Shown piece after piece: positions 23,719 to 46,336 of a stretch of DNA of 64,000 bases. This stretch comes from Sulfurimonas sp. GTDB taxonomy: Bacteria > Campylobacterota > Campylobacteria > Campylobacterales > Sulfurimonadaceae. Under the pieces are notes generated by a model. That model worked only from the letters and a program-made list of their open reading frames with translations. It was not told the DNA's origin and searched no databases. Where the stretch lies: contig NZ_JAQTLY010000002.1 in NCBI RefSeq assembly GCF_028714655.1, positions 62,001 to 126,000 on the forward strand, read 5' to 3'. How positions within the stretch are numbered: position 1 is the stretch's first letter; each line of letters begins with the position of its first letter. The position numbers and the translations under genes are program-made.

Positions 23719-24321
23719 CTAATAAGTCACTCTATGCATATTGATGAGTTCACTATAATCCCCATTGTCAGCTTTTTTCAAGGCACTGATATACTCACTT
23801 CTTTTAGGATTTTCTTTAGCCAGTAAATCCTCTTGCCAACGAACAGGCATTTTGCCATGCTGTCTTAAATAAATATTTGCCAACATCCTGCTCCATCTGC
23901 CATTACCGTTTTGAAATGGGTGAATTTGGACTGCTCTATGATGCATCCTTGTAGCTATCTCAAACACATCATAAGTCTTGTTTTTACTCCAATACTCCAC
24001 ATCATCACACAGAATTTTAAGTTCCATCGGCACACGATACGCTTGGATACCTATGGATAACTCTATTTTTCTAAACTTTCCAGCCCATTCCCACACATCT
24101 CCAAACATCTCTTCATGTAGTTCCATCATCCAGCCGTAACTAAAGGGTGCTTCTTTTTTTGACGGTGGGGCTGAGAGGTATTTTAGTATTGCTTTTGCAA
24201 TATTCCCAGCTTCTCTTTCATATATCTCTTTGAGTGTATAAACTTTTCCTTTTGGAAGTTTTAAGCCCGATATATCATTAAGAGGTGTTGCATCATCGAT
24301 ACGCTTGGTAGAATCTATCAT
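23719..24321 (-). CDS. Fic-domain protein, mobile mystery protein B type
   Basis: Fic enzymes usually transfer AMP or another nucleotide part to target proteins. This 200-residue protein carries the Fic motif as HPFQNGNGR at about residue 138; the usual acidic residue is Asn, which I recall as normal for the mobile mystery protein B subfamily. Other family marks are MFGDVWEWAGKFRKIELSIG, YRVPMELKILCDDVEYW and NIYLRQHGKMPVRW. The ATG at 24321 overlaps the upstream HTH gene stop as TGATG, so the two are coupled; a TTG at 24333 is a less likely start. No inhibitory (S/T)xxxE(G/N) helix was found in it or its partner. Probably a toxin-antitoxin-like module. Confidence 0.88.
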   Translation of the reverse strand: MIDSTKRIDDATPLNDISGLKLPKGKVYTLKEIYEREAGNIAKAILKYLSAPPSKKEAPFSYGWMMELHEEMFGDVWEWAGKFRKIELSIGIQAYRVPMELKILCDDVEYWSKNKTYDVFEIATRMHHRAVQIHPFQNGNGRWSRMLANIYLRQHGKMPVRWQEDLLAKENPKRSEYISALKKADNGDYSELINMHRVTY

Positions 24322-24701
24322 CACGCTACCCAAAGCCTGTCTTTATACTGACCGCTTAAAAATTCTTGCTCTAATGTATAAATCATTTTATCTATACTGT
24401 TTTTTTCTAATCCTTGCATTTCAAGAGCCGATGTGCTTTGGACGAATGATGTCATCATTATCGCTTTTTCTCTGGCTCTTTTTGCTTTAAGTTTATCAAG
24501 TGAAATGACTTCATTTCCCGCAAAGTCAAGACCAAGTATATTTGTTATCTTCTCAACCGTGCTAAGCCTGACATCATCACATGCAAAAAATCTATTGAGC
24601 GTTCTCATCCCAACATCTGACAATTTAGCTAGATTTTCCATAGTGATGTTAAGCTCTTTTTTTCTATGTTGTATCTTATTTACCAATTCTGCTTTTGTCA
24701 T
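24321..24701 (-). CDS. Helix-turn-helix regulator paired with the Fic gene
   Basis: A 126-residue protein with an N-terminal XRE-like helix-turn-helix (residues about 8-60: RKKELNITMENLAKLSDVGM, RTLNRFFACDDVRLSTVEKI). The C-terminal part is helical, with KRAREKAIMMTSFVQSTSAL. I start it at the ATG at 24701, with AGGA 7 bases before; an ATG at 24749 would read through the operator palindrome at 24714-24747. The stop overlaps the Fic start. It is likely an autoregulator and may act as antitoxin. It differs from the MmpA proteins I remember, so I do not use that name. Confidence 0.82.
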   Translation of the reverse strand: MTKAELVNKIQHRKKELNITMENLAKLSDVGMRTLNRFFACDDVRLSTVEKITNILGLDFAGNEVISLDKLKAKRAREKAIMMTSFVQSTSALEMQGLEKNSIDKMIYTLEQEFLSGQYKDRLWVA

Positions 24702-24713
24702 GACATATCCTTT

Positions 24714-24747
24714 GAAAGTATTATGCCATAAATGGCATAATACTTTC
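24714..24747. promoter_or_regulatory. Perfect 16-bp inverted repeat, likely operator of the HTH-Fic pair
   Basis: GAAAGTATTATGCCAT (24714-24729) and ATGGCATAATACTTTC (24732-24747) are exact reverse complements separated by AA. The centre of the palindrome is about 30 bp upstream of the HTH start codon and it contains -10-like TATTAT sequences. Its position and symmetry suit binding of the HTH dimer and autorepression. Confidence 0.7.
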
Positions 24748-25147
24748 ATTTACCGAGCTTTTTCTAAGTCTCACTCTCCCAAGAGAATATTACTTAAAGC
24801 AAGTTTGTCAATATATCGAAGCGCTTCACATCTCAAGGTCTGCATTTATCCAAAAACTAGCTATAAGAGAGATAAACGGTAATGCTATAAAGCAGTAGCT
24901 AGTCTGCTACATAAAGGGAATATTTTTACTTAGAGACAAAGTAAAATTTCAAAAATAATTTCCTTTACTTTTATTATGACCCATATTTGAATTTAGTTAA
25001 AAGTAAAACTCTGACCCGCTTTACCCATGCCATACAAACGAGGAAAAGAAAAGAAGTATAAGAAAAAAATAAGAAAAGTTTCAAAAGTGTGTGTGACACC
25101 TATTTTCCTTAGCTTTCTGCAAAAACTACTTTCTTATATTTAAAGTA
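24748..25147. other. Gene-free 400-bp stretch with degenerate sequence
   Basis: No convincing gene was found here. On the minus strand a broken frame near 24750-24840 reads pieces such as ALSNILLGRVRLRKSS between stops, which may be decayed coding DNA. A small hairpin (GTAGC/GCTAC) lies near 24893-24908. A lysine-rich 38-codon plus-strand frame begins at 25027 but has no good ribosome binding site. The stretch probably contains gene remains from earlier insertions. Confidence 0.4.
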
Positions 25148-25540
25148 TCAATATAATTTTTTGGAAAATGTCATAATAATGGTAGCCTTTATACCATTCT
25201 CAGATATTTTTTCATTTGTTGATGTGCAAAAAATAATAAATTCAGCATCATTGTAAGTCATATTAAAAGTATCCATTATATTTGTTATTTTGATTATATT
25301 ATAATTGGGATGTATATGAAAACAAATCAAAATAGAACTTTTCATATTTTTAAATTCGAGTTTATGTGTCGATTGCATAACTGACTTGAGTTCATTATCG
25401 TCTTTATACTCACAAACATCAATGAAAAATAAATCTTTGTTTTTTAATATAGTTTTTATATCGTCATCATCAAGATTAATATCATTTGGATTCTTACTAT
25501 TTAACATTTTGTTTAGCTCTTCATAAGATATTTCCTTCAA
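25148..25540 (-). CDS. Small protein with FtsZ-C-terminal-domain-like pattern, unknown
   Basis: A 130-residue cytoplasmic protein. From about residue 65 the order of strands and helices (SSILICFHIHPNYNIIKITN, then IMDTF, DAEFIIFCTSTNEKI and GIKATIIMTF) follows the C-terminal domain of FtsZ, where one expects -ALVNITGG-DLTL-EV-, DANIIFG- and -IRVTVIATGF. There is no GTPase domain. The N-terminal 60 residues contain an acidic run (NDINLDDDDIKTIL). It is the last gene of a four-gene minus-strand group led by a WYL regulator. The similarity is my own reading and needs a profile search. Confidence 0.6.
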   Translation of the reverse strand: MKEISYEELNKMLNSKNPNDINLDDDDIKTILKNKDLFFIDVCEYKDDNELKSVMQSTHKLEFKNMKSSILICFHIHPNYNIIKITNIMDTFNMTYNDAEFIIFCTSTNEKISENGIKATIIMTFSKKLY

Positions 25541-25600
25541 CTAAATCTCCTCTTTTTATTCTATGTTTAAAGGTTTACAAGCAACTTAAGCAAAACTTAT

Positions 25601-26047
25601 TTAATAGTTTTTTTCGTAGTAGCTATCAATAACACTGCCAGCTGCATTCATAGTTTGAACAAAATAATGCGAACCTGTACGAATTTTTACTGTTACTGAA
25701 TGTTCTGTCCAATTAACTAGTTCCGTACATGCTGCACTATAATTTCCGATTCTGTCGCCGTATTTGTAAAAAACAGTAATGTGACCATTGCTAAATCTTA
25801 CATTTGTTATAGTCTTCTCCTTATTTGATGAGCTATTTGAAGAATTCCTATTTTTACTGTTATCAAATGCGGAAATAATTTTAATTGCTAGCATCACTGT
25901 ATATTCAAATGTTAAATTTAAAAAACTGCCCAAAAGAAACTGATTGTGATTTTTTATAGTCTCTTTGTATGCCAAAAAGAGAGCTATAGCCAGCCATATT
26001 GCTAAAACAGCATATAGCCATAGATATTCAGAATTTAATAATTCCAT
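25601..26047 (-). CDS. Membrane-anchored small protein, unknown
   Basis: The first 75 residues hold one clear membrane helix (LWLYAVLAIWLAIALFLAY) and a second hydrophobic stretch (FLNLTFEYTVMLAIKIISAF). A Ser/Asn-rich linker (NRNSSNSSSNK) joins them to a soluble domain of about 65 residues predicted as beta-strands (ITNVRFSNGHITVFYKYGDR, HSVTVKIRTGSHYFVQTMNA). I do not recognise the domain. It lies 45 bases after the nuclease gene and 60 before the FtsZ-C-like gene. A membrane partner beside a nuclease-like protein is a common plan in defence operons, but that is inference. Confidence 0.65.
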   Translation of the reverse strand: MELLNSEYLWLYAVLAIWLAIALFLAYKETIKNHNQFLLGSFLNLTFEYTVMLAIKIISAFDNSKNRNSSNSSSNKEKTITNVRFSNGHITVFYKYGDRIGNYSAACTELVNWTEHSVTVKIRTGSHYFVQTMNAAGSVIDSYYEKNY

Positions 26048-26092
26048 TTTTAACTCCTAATATTATTTGTAATGGACAGCTTTATGTCTGTT

Positions 26093-27376
26093 TTAAGAAT
26101 TTATTGCTTTTGCAATAGCTTTTTCATTTTCCTCAAGCTGATTTATTGTGTTTTCAACTTCTCTGGCTACTTTATCAACATAATTGTTAAATTGCTTATC
26201 ATTAAATAAATCATATGTCGGTTCTGTTTGATAACGACCGTAAAAAATAATTTTTTCATCTATATTTTTATATCTTTTATTTTTATCATATATTCTAGTA
26301 AAACTAATGTTCTCACATATTGCCTTTAATGCAGAATTCATTGATATTATCTCCCCATTTTCTGCATAAAATGACAGATAAATAGATACAGTACTCTCTA
26401 ATTGAACAATCATCAAATATACGGAAGTGTTGTTTTTATACTCTTTTTCTAGAGAAAATCCCATAAAAACATATTTTATATATCGTAAGCGATAAATTCT
26501 TTCGATAACTTCTTCTTTTGGTAATTCATTTCCTTGCTTATCAAGCCAAATATTGTTAATATCACGAAATTCATATTTTTTACCTAAATAAAAATTTTGT
26601 AATCTTTCTTCCAATGCATCCCAAAACTCCATCTCTTTTTTTGCCCAGATTTTAGGATATTCATTCAGTATGATTTGAGCCGCTTCAACTTGTTTTGGTG
26701 TATTTATTACTTCTTCCATTTCTTTCTCCATAGGTATCGATATTTTATTTGTGATTTTCCCGATTAAGTTTTTATAATGCACAAGTCCCTCTCTAAGCAG
26801 AGGAATGGTCGCACTTTTTTCTATACACTCTTCAATCCAATTATAGATATCGTCTCTAAACGATAGTAAAAAATAATCTTTATCAACTTTAAGCCCATTT
26901 GTGCTTTCTTTACTTGCTTCGTAACCTGTTAAAGTGAGATAGTAAAGTTTAGATTCTTTATTACTTTTGTCTAGCTCTTTTTTATAATCAAGCAATTGCT
27001 TATCTTGATCTCCGGCATCTATCTTCATCTCTATCCCGATTTGATAGTTTTGTGTTTCTAAAACAAAATCAATTCTTCTATTATTACTAGCAGGGTACTC
27101 TTGATAAATATTTTTGATGCCGCCATATTCTCCTAAATCAAGAGTATTTTTTAAAAATAACTCCAAAAATAGAGTTCCTTGATTATGGGAACCTTTGGGG
27201 TTAAGCAATTCATAGATAAAATTAGAGTGCATCTGCACTTCATATCTATCAAGTTTTAAGATTGAAAAGATATTGAAGCTTTCACCCTTAATCTTTTTTA
27301 TCTCTTCGTATTTTTCGTTTATCTTAATCACCTGAGCAATTATTGACTTTATAGTTTGTTTTTCTTCTTGTTGCAT
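26093..27376 (-). CDS. PD-(D/E)XK nuclease-superfamily protein
   Basis: This 427-residue protein matches the PDDEXK_4 type. The N-terminal part has FYELLNPKGSHNQGTLFLEL-like sequence (FIYELLNPKGSHNQGTLFLE), followed by the catalytic pattern NNRRIDFVLETQNYQIGIEM, then KIDAGDQDKQLLDYKKEL, giving D ... E-x-K (D at about residue 101, E-M-K near 116-118). The later half is helical with a beta-rich end (KYVFMGFSLEKEYKNNTSVY). Such proteins occur in anti-phage systems and as nucleases of unknown role. It follows the WYL gene by 45 bases in the same direction. Confidence 0.85.
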   Translation of the reverse strand: MQQEEKQTIKSIIAQVIKINEKYEEIKKIKGESFNIFSILKLDRYEVQMHSNFIYELLNPKGSHNQGTLFLELFLKNTLDLGEYGGIKNIYQEYPASNNRRIDFVLETQNYQIGIEMKIDAGDQDKQLLDYKKELDKSNKESKLYYLTLTGYEASKESTNGLKVDKDYFLLSFRDDIYNWIEECIEKSATIPLLREGLVHYKNLIGKITNKISIPMEKEMEEVINTPKQVEAAQIILNEYPKIWAKKEMEFWDALEERLQNFYLGKKYEFRDINNIWLDKQGNELPKEEVIERIYRLRYIKYVFMGFSLEKEYKNNTSVYLMIVQLESTVSIYLSFYAENGEIISMNSALKAICENISFTRIYDKNKRYKNIDEKIIFYGRYQTEPTYDLFNDKQFNNYVDKVAREVENTINQLEENEKAIAKAINS

Positions 27377-27421
27377 TAAATTCCTTTCAAAGTTACAATG
27401 TATCTTACATGTAAGACATCT

Positions 27422-28342
27422 TTATGTCCGTTCATCCAAATAACTTTTTAAATCCTCATCTACCATCTCTTGAATCCACAACGGTTCAATCACTCTTAAA
27501 TGAGGCAGCCAATATTTAATGACAGGGATGATTTCCATTTCATCGGTTATGCGTACGATAAACTCCATCGTACCGTCTTTGCTTAAAGTTTCTATCTTTT
27601 GAGTCGGGAGTTGCCTTCTTAAAAAATATTTTGCAGCTGTTTTATCTGCATATATTTTTACTTCAAACGGTTCTATGTCCGACTTGAACCAGATATTTAT
27701 AGAGTTTTCTAAAAGAGCTTCAATCTTATCGTCGGTTGTAAAAGTTATCGCTGTTTGTTTTATGTTTGAGAGAGTTTTTATGTAGTATTTTTCTATGTAA
27801 CCGTCTCTAGCTGCTACTAAATACCAAAAGCCTTCGTAATTAACTATTTTTAGCGGTTGTATATTTGTTCTGAAAGTTCCTTCTCTCTCGTTTTCATAAC
27901 TGCACTCCAATTCAGTTTTTTCTTTTATGGCTTTTTCTATTAGATGAACATCATCAAATCTATCGCTGATATCTTCTATATTTAATTTTGCATAGATGGG
28001 GTTAAACTCTTCATTTTTAATTTTAGATAGAAGTTTGTGTGATGACATCGCAAATTTACCGCCAATGCCTTCAGCAATTTTTTCCATAATCTCTAAAACT
28101 AACTGCTCTTGAAGAGATTTTGTTTTCTCAACTCTAAAACCCTCTTGCATTTTCCATTTTTTATTATCTTGGTAGATATGAAATGCACTTAGTCTCTCGT
28201 TAAAATCTCGTTGAATTGTTTTGGAACTGACATTAAATTCTTCTGCTAACTCTTTAACAGACAGAGCTTCTCTATCATTAAGTCGTGATAAAATTGTTGT
28301 AAGTCTTGTTAATATTTTGTCATAGTCGTGTTTATATGCCAT
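27422..28342 (-). CDS. WYL-domain transcriptional regulator
   Basis: The 306-residue protein has an N-terminal winged helix (SVKELAEEFNVSSKTIQRDF, about residues 24-43), a central WYL domain (ECSYENEREGTFRTNIQPLK, then EGFWYLVAARDGYIEKYYIK at about 165-195) and a C-terminal WCX-like extension (PFEVKIYADKTAAKYFLRRQ). WYL regulators often sense nucleic acids or nucleotides and control defence operons (BrxR and CapW are examples). It heads a four-gene group on the minus strand and probably represses it. The upstream 290 bp contain a dispersed repeat element. Confidence 0.9.
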   Translation of the reverse strand: MAYKHDYDKILTRLTTILSRLNDREALSVKELAEEFNVSSKTIQRDFNERLSAFHIYQDNKKWKMQEGFRVEKTKSLQEQLVLEIMEKIAEGIGGKFAMSSHKLLSKIKNEEFNPIYAKLNIEDISDRFDDVHLIEKAIKEKTELECSYENEREGTFRTNIQPLKIVNYEGFWYLVAARDGYIEKYYIKTLSNIKQTAITFTTDDKIEALLENSINIWFKSDIEPFEVKIYADKTAAKYFLRRQLPTQKIETLSKDGTMEFIVRITDEMEIIPVIKYWLPHLRVIEPLWIQEMVDEDLKSYLDERT

Positions 28343-28438
28343 ATAATAAAACCTTTAATTAACTCTAATATTATATCTTTATTATTAATTTATATTTAAT
28401 TGGTTTATTTTTTCATCATCAGTAATAAACATTTATTC

Positions 28439-28556
28439 AATAGACTTCTCGTAACCTAAAAATTAGATTCCAAATGAAGTTTGGAATGACGAGATTTTCT
28501 ACTTTTTGTCATCCTGAACTTGATTCAGGATCTTTGGTTTGCAAGAAGTTTAATAG
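28439..28556. repeat. Composite intergenic element with inverted ends
   Basis: A 118-bp element begins AATAGACTTCT and ends AGAAGTTTAATAG. Inside are two palindromes, TAGATTCCAAATGAAGTTTG with its completion to 28491, and GTCATCCTGAACTTGATTCA with its completion to 28533. A close copy with the same order lies at 39909-40026. The layout resembles a small non-autonomous repeat. It sits between the divergent WYL and sodB genes, so it lies in or near their promoters. Confidence 0.75.
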
Positions 28557-45904: not shown

Positions 45905-45921
45905 TTTTATCCTTTTTATTT

Positions 45922-46336
45922 GATTTTAAACGCTAATCGGAATAAGTCCCGCTTAGCTACGCTCGCCGCTGTGGCACTAAAGCTTGACACGAAAGTGTCA
46001 GAATGATTTTAAACGCTAATCGGAACAAGTCCCGCTTAGCTACGCTCGCCGCTGTGGCACTAAAGCTTGACACGAAAGTGTCAGAATGATTTTAAACGCC
46101 AATCGGAACAAGTCCCGCTTAGCTACGCTTACCGCTATGGCACTAAAGCTTGACACGAAAGTGTCAGAATGATTTTAAACGCTAATCGGAACAAGTCCCG
46201 ATTAGCTACGCTTACCGCTGTGGTACTAAAGCTTGACACGAAAGTGTCAGAACGATTTTAAACGCTAATCGGAACAAGTCCCGCTTAGCTACGCTCGCAG
46301 CACGGGTACTAAAGCTTGACACTTTCGTGTCAGAGC
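45922..46336. repeat. Five tandem 83-bp structured repeats between lolA and secA
   Basis: Units start at 45922, 46005, 46088, 46171 and 46254, exactly 83 bp apart, and begin GATTTTAAACGCTAATCGGA (unit 3 reads CCAATCGG). Each contains a CTTAG ... CTAAAG region and ends with the hairpin TGACAC-GAAA-GTGTCA. In the last unit the loop reads TTTC, the reverse complement of GAAA, and the middle part differs (CGCAGCACGGGTAC). Units 1-4 differ at only a few positions. A diverged single copy lies at 19673-19722. No CRISPR-like unique spacers are present. Confidence 0.9.

Follow-up and report, generated by a model that had tools for sequence, protein, structure and literature searches.

The stretch of DNA analyzed here, called the window below, comprises 64,000 nucleotides of a Sulfurimonas sp. 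genome (assembly GCF_028714655.1, contig NZ_JAQTLY010000002.1, positions 62,001 to 126,000), and our subject is a cassette of four genes on its minus strand, between positions 25148 and 28342. The genes encode a WYL-family regulator, a predicted PD-(D/E)XK nuclease, a small membrane protein and a stand-alone C-terminal domain of FtsZ, referred to here as FtsZ-C. A first-pass annotation of the window had proposed them as an undescribed operon led by the WYL gene; its coordinates and the intergenic gaps of 45, 45 and 60 bp agree exactly with the list of open reading frames (ORFs). Ribosome-binding-like sequences are found 5' to the nuclease, membrane and FtsZ-C genes. The genes and associated features are the following.

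27422 to 28342, minus strand: WYL-family transcription regulator, 306 amino acids, with HTH_DeoR/HTH_11, WYL and WCX domains (Pfam)
26093 to 27376, minus strand: predicted PD-(D/E)XK nuclease, PDDEXK_4 / PDC-S26, 427 amino acids (Pfam, PADLOC, alignment with relatives)
25601 to 26047, minus strand: membrane protein, 148 amino acids, in the variable "X" slot before FtsZ-C (ORF; no family)
25148 to 25540, minus strand: stand-alone FtsZ C-terminal-domain protein, 130 amino acids, TTG start (TIGR00065, match to host FtsZ)
27415 to 27428, minus strand: candidate WYL operator GACATAAAGATGTC, 5' to the nuclease gene (motif search)
26075 to 26088, minus strand: candidate WYL operator GACATAAAGCTGTC, 5' to the membrane/FtsZ-C gene pair (motif search)
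28343 to 28460, minus strand: probable promoter region of the WYL gene, where an operator copy is absent (upstream sequence)

The cassette is inserted between tmk and hisS, and its GC content is 0.27-0.32, compared with 0.36-0.42 for the adjacent hisS and speA. Among 29 genomes of the genus with upstream sequence, tmk immediately abuts hisS in 10, and sodB or other genes occupy the gap in the remaining 19; because the contents of the gap differ in this way, it is a variable insertion site. The earlier description of accessory DNA within a compact operon is borne out by the low GC content and by the genomes in which the two genes are adjacent.

The regulator is the only WYL match in the window genome. 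It stands first in the cassette, as had been claimed, and Pfam identified the helix-turn-helix (HTH), WYL and WCX architecture seen in defense WYL regulators. The nuclease gave a strong match to Pfam PDDEXK_4 (106.7 bits against a cut-off of 22.3, 1.8e-30) and matched PDC-S26, a PADLOC single-gene phage-defense candidate with a PDDEXK_4 domain, over 409 residues at 9.5e-83. The D...ExK pattern picked out in the first-pass annotation corresponds to predicted catalytic residues, D103...E116-x-K118, that are invariant in 13 relatives of the nuclease. In the alignment of these relatives, residues 261-427 diverge faster than residues 1-260; the relative at locus L026, for instance, is 75% identical in the N-terminal part and 42% in the C-terminal part, and the same direction holds in every comparison that spans both parts. 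Because it is conserved far less than the N-terminal part, the C-terminal half may set specificity. The family is sparse, with just 11 occurrences in 151 genomes of the bacterial family to which the window belongs, and relatives are carried by plasmids of many phyla; a scan of viral contigs found none. An AlphaFold prediction for the nuclease together with one relative had a predicted local distance difference test score (pLDDT) of 53, and Foldseek found no match to it in the PDB at E<=0.001. We found no mention of PDC-S26 or PF14281 in the paper library searched. The nuclease is a known defense candidate, for which nuclease and anti-phage activity are predicted here. PADLOC lists one protein for this system, whereas here a WYL gene and an operator are linked to the nuclease, and FtsZ-C often is as well.

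The 148-residue membrane protein has hydrophobic N-terminal segments and a beta-rich C-terminal part, both recognized by eye. The membrane anchor and beta domain proposed earlier stand on that visual reading; searches of the family libraries returned no match for the protein, and no credible homolog was found in the 151 family genomes. Weak Pfam matches of cassette proteins to Caspase, FtsH_ext and DUF3120 lay far below cut-off and were dropped.

The identity of the fourth gene as FtsZ-C-like was confirmed in three ways. Its product aligns only with the C-terminal part of TIGR00065 (positions 208-324, 1.2e-6), it is 32% identical to the C domain of the host FtsZ (E 2.2e-15), and a profile of its relatives matched only FtsZ entries in the PDB. 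The GTPase domain is absent from this 130-residue protein, only the C domain being aligned, and the true ftsZ of the window genome is found at G000:C8. The protein contains the synergy-loop motif NDINLDDDDI, in which the equivalents of D209 and D212 are kept. An AlphaFold model of the protein alone was unusable (mean pLDDT 38).

Upstream sequences of many genes in the islands we examined have in common the palindrome GACATAAAG[C/A]TGTC, usually preceded by AAACCA. In the alignment of these sites a -10-like box, TAnAnT, starts 12 nt after the palindrome, and the T at its last position is found in 25 of 27 strict sites. Island loci contain the pattern GACA-N6-TGTC 56 times in 398 kb and control loci only 6 times in 335 kb, and the operator has 77 copies in the 151 genomes as against 8 for a reversed-pattern control. 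In the 2.19 Mb window genome GACATAAAGNTGTC occurs exactly twice, at 26075-26088 and 27415-27428, both within the cassette. Across 58 genomes of the genus, the operator tends to be found together with close relatives of the WYL gene (Fisher p=1.8e-5), as it does with accessory FtsZ genes (p=3.2e-7). It lies directly 5' to FtsZ-like genes at L027, L029, L030, L033, L059 and L144, and 5' to the WYL genes themselves at L028, L033 and L092, which suits self-regulation. Other cassettes with the same operator contain AAA+, Fic and DUF2779-associated genes. A WYL-type regulator probably acts through this shared operator, binding being suggested by the association. In genus g14 many genomes have a single operator copy, perhaps one conserved unrelated site.

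Both the nuclease gene and the membrane/FtsZ-C pair have an operator copy 5' to them, which bears on two claims of the first-pass annotation. The arrangement points to co-regulation and need not yield the single transcript that an operon implies. Promoters of their own, which had been taken as a sign that the membrane and FtsZ-C-like genes are unrelated passengers, would in this case share one operator and so point to co-regulation instead.

Relatives of the cassette recur across the order Campylobacterales. When FtsZ-C alone was used as the query, second, non-ftsZ matches were found in a minority of the 151 family genomes, and a profile search detected further accessory FtsZ-C proteins in other Campylobacterales families. 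Neighborhoods were counted at 16 loci in the family and 11 non-tandem loci in other families, all found by FtsZ-C sequence alone without regard to WYL or nuclease genes; the tandem ftsZ copies in G160, G353 and G429 were excluded, as were G069 and G143, which had been found via the nuclease. A WYL gene lies within 6 kb of the accessory FtsZ-C gene at 12 of the 16 family loci and at 7 of the 11 others, where uniform placement predicts about 0.5% per locus, a lower bound on chance since islands cluster. Three of the 16 family genes have a nuclease of the same family within 3 kb (p=4e-9 under uniform placement, which the clustering of islands overstates). The order WYL-nuclease-X-FtsZ-C is found in three loci: the window, L053 in G069, and L149 in G185, which belongs to another family. 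L053 occupies the same chromosomal site as the window cassette with a different X gene, the first 260 residues of its nuclease being 47% identical to those in the window; the gaps in L149 are 12, 33 and -4 bp, and across the three loci this part of the nuclease is 27-47% identical. FtsZ-C adjoins the nuclease also at L027, L035, L059, L144 and L145, and WYL and nuclease genes occur without FtsZ-C at L026, L052 and L054, so the parts of the cassette are separable.

The content of the X slot varies. The slot is filled by SRP54/FlhF-like proteins in L053 and L091 and by PcfJ-domain proteins in L140 and L149, and small leucine-rich-repeat (LRR) proteins occupy it or otherwise adjoin FtsZ-C in L028, L029, L090, L095 and L145. 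The SRP54/FlhF-type GTPase-like proteins (L091:8518-9174, 7.6e-22; L053:5867-6316, just 0.041) are encoded directly 5' to FtsZ-C and are possibly a second host-protein mimic. The expectation that the same four genes would be found together elsewhere therefore held for the order, which is preserved in G069 and G185, and failed for the membrane gene, which is found only in the window. Other island neighbors match the defense models DUF262 / HEC-06, IetA-like AAA+, SoFic and type I methylase; recurrence near other defense genes had been named as support for the proposal. The proposed undescribed combination is accordingly real, recurrent and defense-like, without being a fixed set of four. The nuclease as a defense candidate and the control of defense islands by WYL proteins are already known, while we found neither the operator nor the repeated presence of stand-alone FtsZ C domains in such islands described in the family libraries and open-access literature searched, a search that many subscription papers and preprints fall outside. 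The cassette is probably horizontally acquired, mobile and anti-phage.

The accessory FtsZ-like proteins consist either of the C domain alone (about 110-200 residues) or of the C domain with degenerate or separate GTPase parts, and retain 37% of FtsZ consensus residues overall. Among the columns that are invariant in FtsZ, the equivalent of D212 (E. coli numbering) ranks first in retention (27/28) and that of D209 third (24/29). Positions in the synergy loop and in the footprint of the T7 protein Gp0.4 are retained at 0.42 compared with 0.32 for the rest (permutation p=0.008), whereas FtsZ itself conserves the footprint and other positions equally. In a tree of C domains, the accessory proteins need at least 6 changes by well-supported branches, and several group with the FtsZ of the lineage in which they occur (L143 with G288, L149 with G185, and L029 and L030 with the genus of the window). 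A single accessory clade was rejected by the approximately unbiased (AU) test (p=0.019) after removal of tandem copies and the longest branches; the alignment is short, at 114 columns, and the long branches call for caution. The accessory proteins thus appear to be derived from host FtsZ several times, as judged from these sequences. Searches of plasmids and phages with FtsZ-C by tblastn, and a scan of viral contigs for FtsZ relatives, found none, leaving plasmid carriage and phage encoding unsupported.

Several related arrangements were seen. L154, L155 and L156, in three genomes of other families, are shortened second ftsZ copies directly 3' to the true ftsZ. L142:5941-7476 encodes the GTPase domain of an FtsZ (Tubulin 4.7e-25), to which a hydrophobic segment is joined at the N terminus, and is followed by an FtsZ-C gene split into two frames, and in L146 the two halves of FtsZ are separate genes. 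In another Campylobacterales family, the gene for a histone-deacetylase-domain protein (L151:5278-6726, 1.7e-45) overlaps an FtsZ-C gene.

The regulator had been likened to those that control BREX and CBASS operons. Like BrxR and CapW, it is an HTH-WYL-WCX protein heading defense genes, with inverted-repeat operators (PMC9122601), and an inverted repeat is present in the sequence of the regulated promoters, as in defense WYL systems. However, BREX and CBASS genes are absent from the cassette, and neither its four proteins nor an adjoining Fic/HTH pair, described below, matched core BREX or CBASS models (PADLOC, E<=1). The BrxR repeats, moreover, lie 3' to the -10 element, where BrxR represses (PMC9122601), whereas the cassette palindrome lies 5' to its -10-like box. 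Operator position in this respect resembles that of DriD, a WYL activator of Caulobacter triggered by single-stranded DNA, which binds a GAC-N7-GTC site over the -35 region at constant distance from -10 (PMC12340889); the cassette site likewise lies over -35 with constant spacing to -10, differing in that its spacer is N8. The earlier comparison therefore holds for domain layout and not for operator position. Among the genes that DriD controls are didA, which encodes a division inhibitor, and bapE, which encodes an endonuclease (PMC12340889; PMC4211646). Division and nuclease outputs are likewise combined in the cassette, which differs in being mobile and self-contained, with sensing of single-stranded DNA by its WYL protein a candidate property. 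DidA is not known to be an FtsZ fragment.

The explanation we favor, with a probability of roughly 0.4, is that the cassette is a WYL-switched set of effectors, in which the nuclease would damage DNA and the FtsZ fragment would stop division, the two being co-regulated units under one WYL switch. In uninfected cells both units would be silent or low. Upon infection or DNA damage the WYL protein would activate both promoters, perhaps through binding of single-stranded DNA like DriD and PafBC; the nuclease would then cut phage DNA, host DNA or both, and the FtsZ fragment would dock on the end of the host FtsZ filament via its kept T7/synergy-loop face, block extension and so stop division. The outcome would be a transferable response, combining a checkpoint with a nuclease, that keeps phages from spreading as far. 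The operator 5' to both units, the intact nuclease motif, the GTPase-less C domain with its synergy loop and the gene order kept in three diverged loci all support effectors, and an inducible cassette is favored because operator position resembles that of DriD and differs from that of BrxR. The proposed endpoint is that of SulA and MciZ, which block FtsZ polymerization by acting at the same FtsZ end (PMC4929429); those are unrelated C-domain binders, whereas the cassette inhibitor would itself be an FtsZ C domain. Such a cassette suits a genus in which LexA scored above the curated cut-off in 0 of 41 genomes and SulA was found in none of them.

A number of observations weigh against this explanation. 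The WYL protein is linked to the operator by association only; no operator copy directly precedes the FtsZ-C gene, which sits 3' to the membrane gene, and in the window the promoter of the WYL gene also lacks one. D212 and D209 may have been preserved for the sake of the fold or of a binding partner that is not FtsZ. Accessory FtsZ-C proteins change rapidly, which is unexpected if all that the domain must do is fit the highly conserved FtsZ, and the X partners are too variable to reveal their role. Finally, G137 has an FtsZ-C/nuclease pair, and no such WYL gene was found in its genome.

Rapid change and repeated recruitment are explained by the principal competing idea, a possible one that we hold less likely, in which the fragment imitates host FtsZ as a decoy: phage proteins that target the C domain to stop division would also bind the fragment and thereby switch on its partner or the nuclease. 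The surfaces of FtsZ that T7 Gp0.4 contacts are the synergy loop, beta8-alpha12 and beta9-beta10, and CapRel-Ebc is activated by the complex of Gp0.4 with FtsZ (PMC13423816), so that FtsZ C-domain surfaces serve anti-phage sensing there also, although that system relies on the complete FtsZ of the host and on a toxin-antitoxin fusion and has no FtsZ paralog or WYL protein. The higher retention of Gp0.4-matching positions, the at least 6 changes on the tree with their long branches, the AU test and the LRR proteins next to FtsZ-C are all in keeping with a decoy. However, FtsZ-C is apparently under an inducible operator and would be scarce before infection, while a sensor should pre-exist; it has no one effector as a constant neighbor, and no phage FtsZ inhibitors are known for these hosts. 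Effectors therefore explain inducible expression and the absence of a constant effector better than a decoy does. The decoy idea can be extended to the whole order, with mobile immune cassettes of Campylobacterales carrying FtsZ C-domain mimics repeatedly recruited from the host as decoys for phage FtsZ inhibitors, along with interchangeable effectors and a shared WYL operator, like the "integrated decoy" of plants; this extension we likewise consider possible, though not likely.

It is unlikely, in our view, that FtsZ-C and the membrane protein are independent defense genes that share a hot spot and an operator and have no joint function with the nuclease. That would fit the WYL and nuclease genes without FtsZ-C in L026, L052 and L054, the plasmid-borne nucleases of many phyla, the restriction of the membrane gene to the window, and the AAA+, Fic and DUF2779-associated genes behind the same operator elsewhere, but the shared gene order has persisted in three loci despite the divergence of their nucleases, and 3 of the 16 accessory FtsZ genes lie close to a nuclease, with the reservation on clustering given above. 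Preservation of the inhibitor-binding face, seen in the Gp0.4-footprint positions, could also mean that FtsZ-C titrates a division inhibitor, encoded alongside it or by a phage, and so allows division to continue. This we consider very improbable: no co-encoded division inhibitor was recognized in the islands read, and a toxin-antitoxin pair would require a constant partner.

Two other features of the window are recorded here. Adjoining the cassette, at 23719-24749, are two genes, one for a protein with a Fic domain that matches "mobile mystery protein B" at 5.9e-54 and the other, upstream of it, for an HTH protein. An inverted repeat with perfect 17-bp arms separated by 2 bp (24713-24748) overlaps the start region of the HTH gene and is probably its operator, and close relatives of the Fic gene adjoin WYL genes in L105 and L106. 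At 45921-46322 an 83-bp unit forms an array of 4.8 copies (94% matches), and a GACACGAAAGTGTC hairpin is present in each copy.

FtsZ fragments that were repeatedly copied into WYL-controlled islands of defense genes point to division as a regular battleground between these bacteria and their phages. With the shared operator as a search motif, it is simple to compile the whole regulon of these genomes. Where LexA and SulA were not found, the cassette may account for the coupling of DNA damage to division arrest, and the fragments form a defined, testable set of proteins for studying the ways in which bacteria detect an attack by phages on FtsZ or turn it to use.

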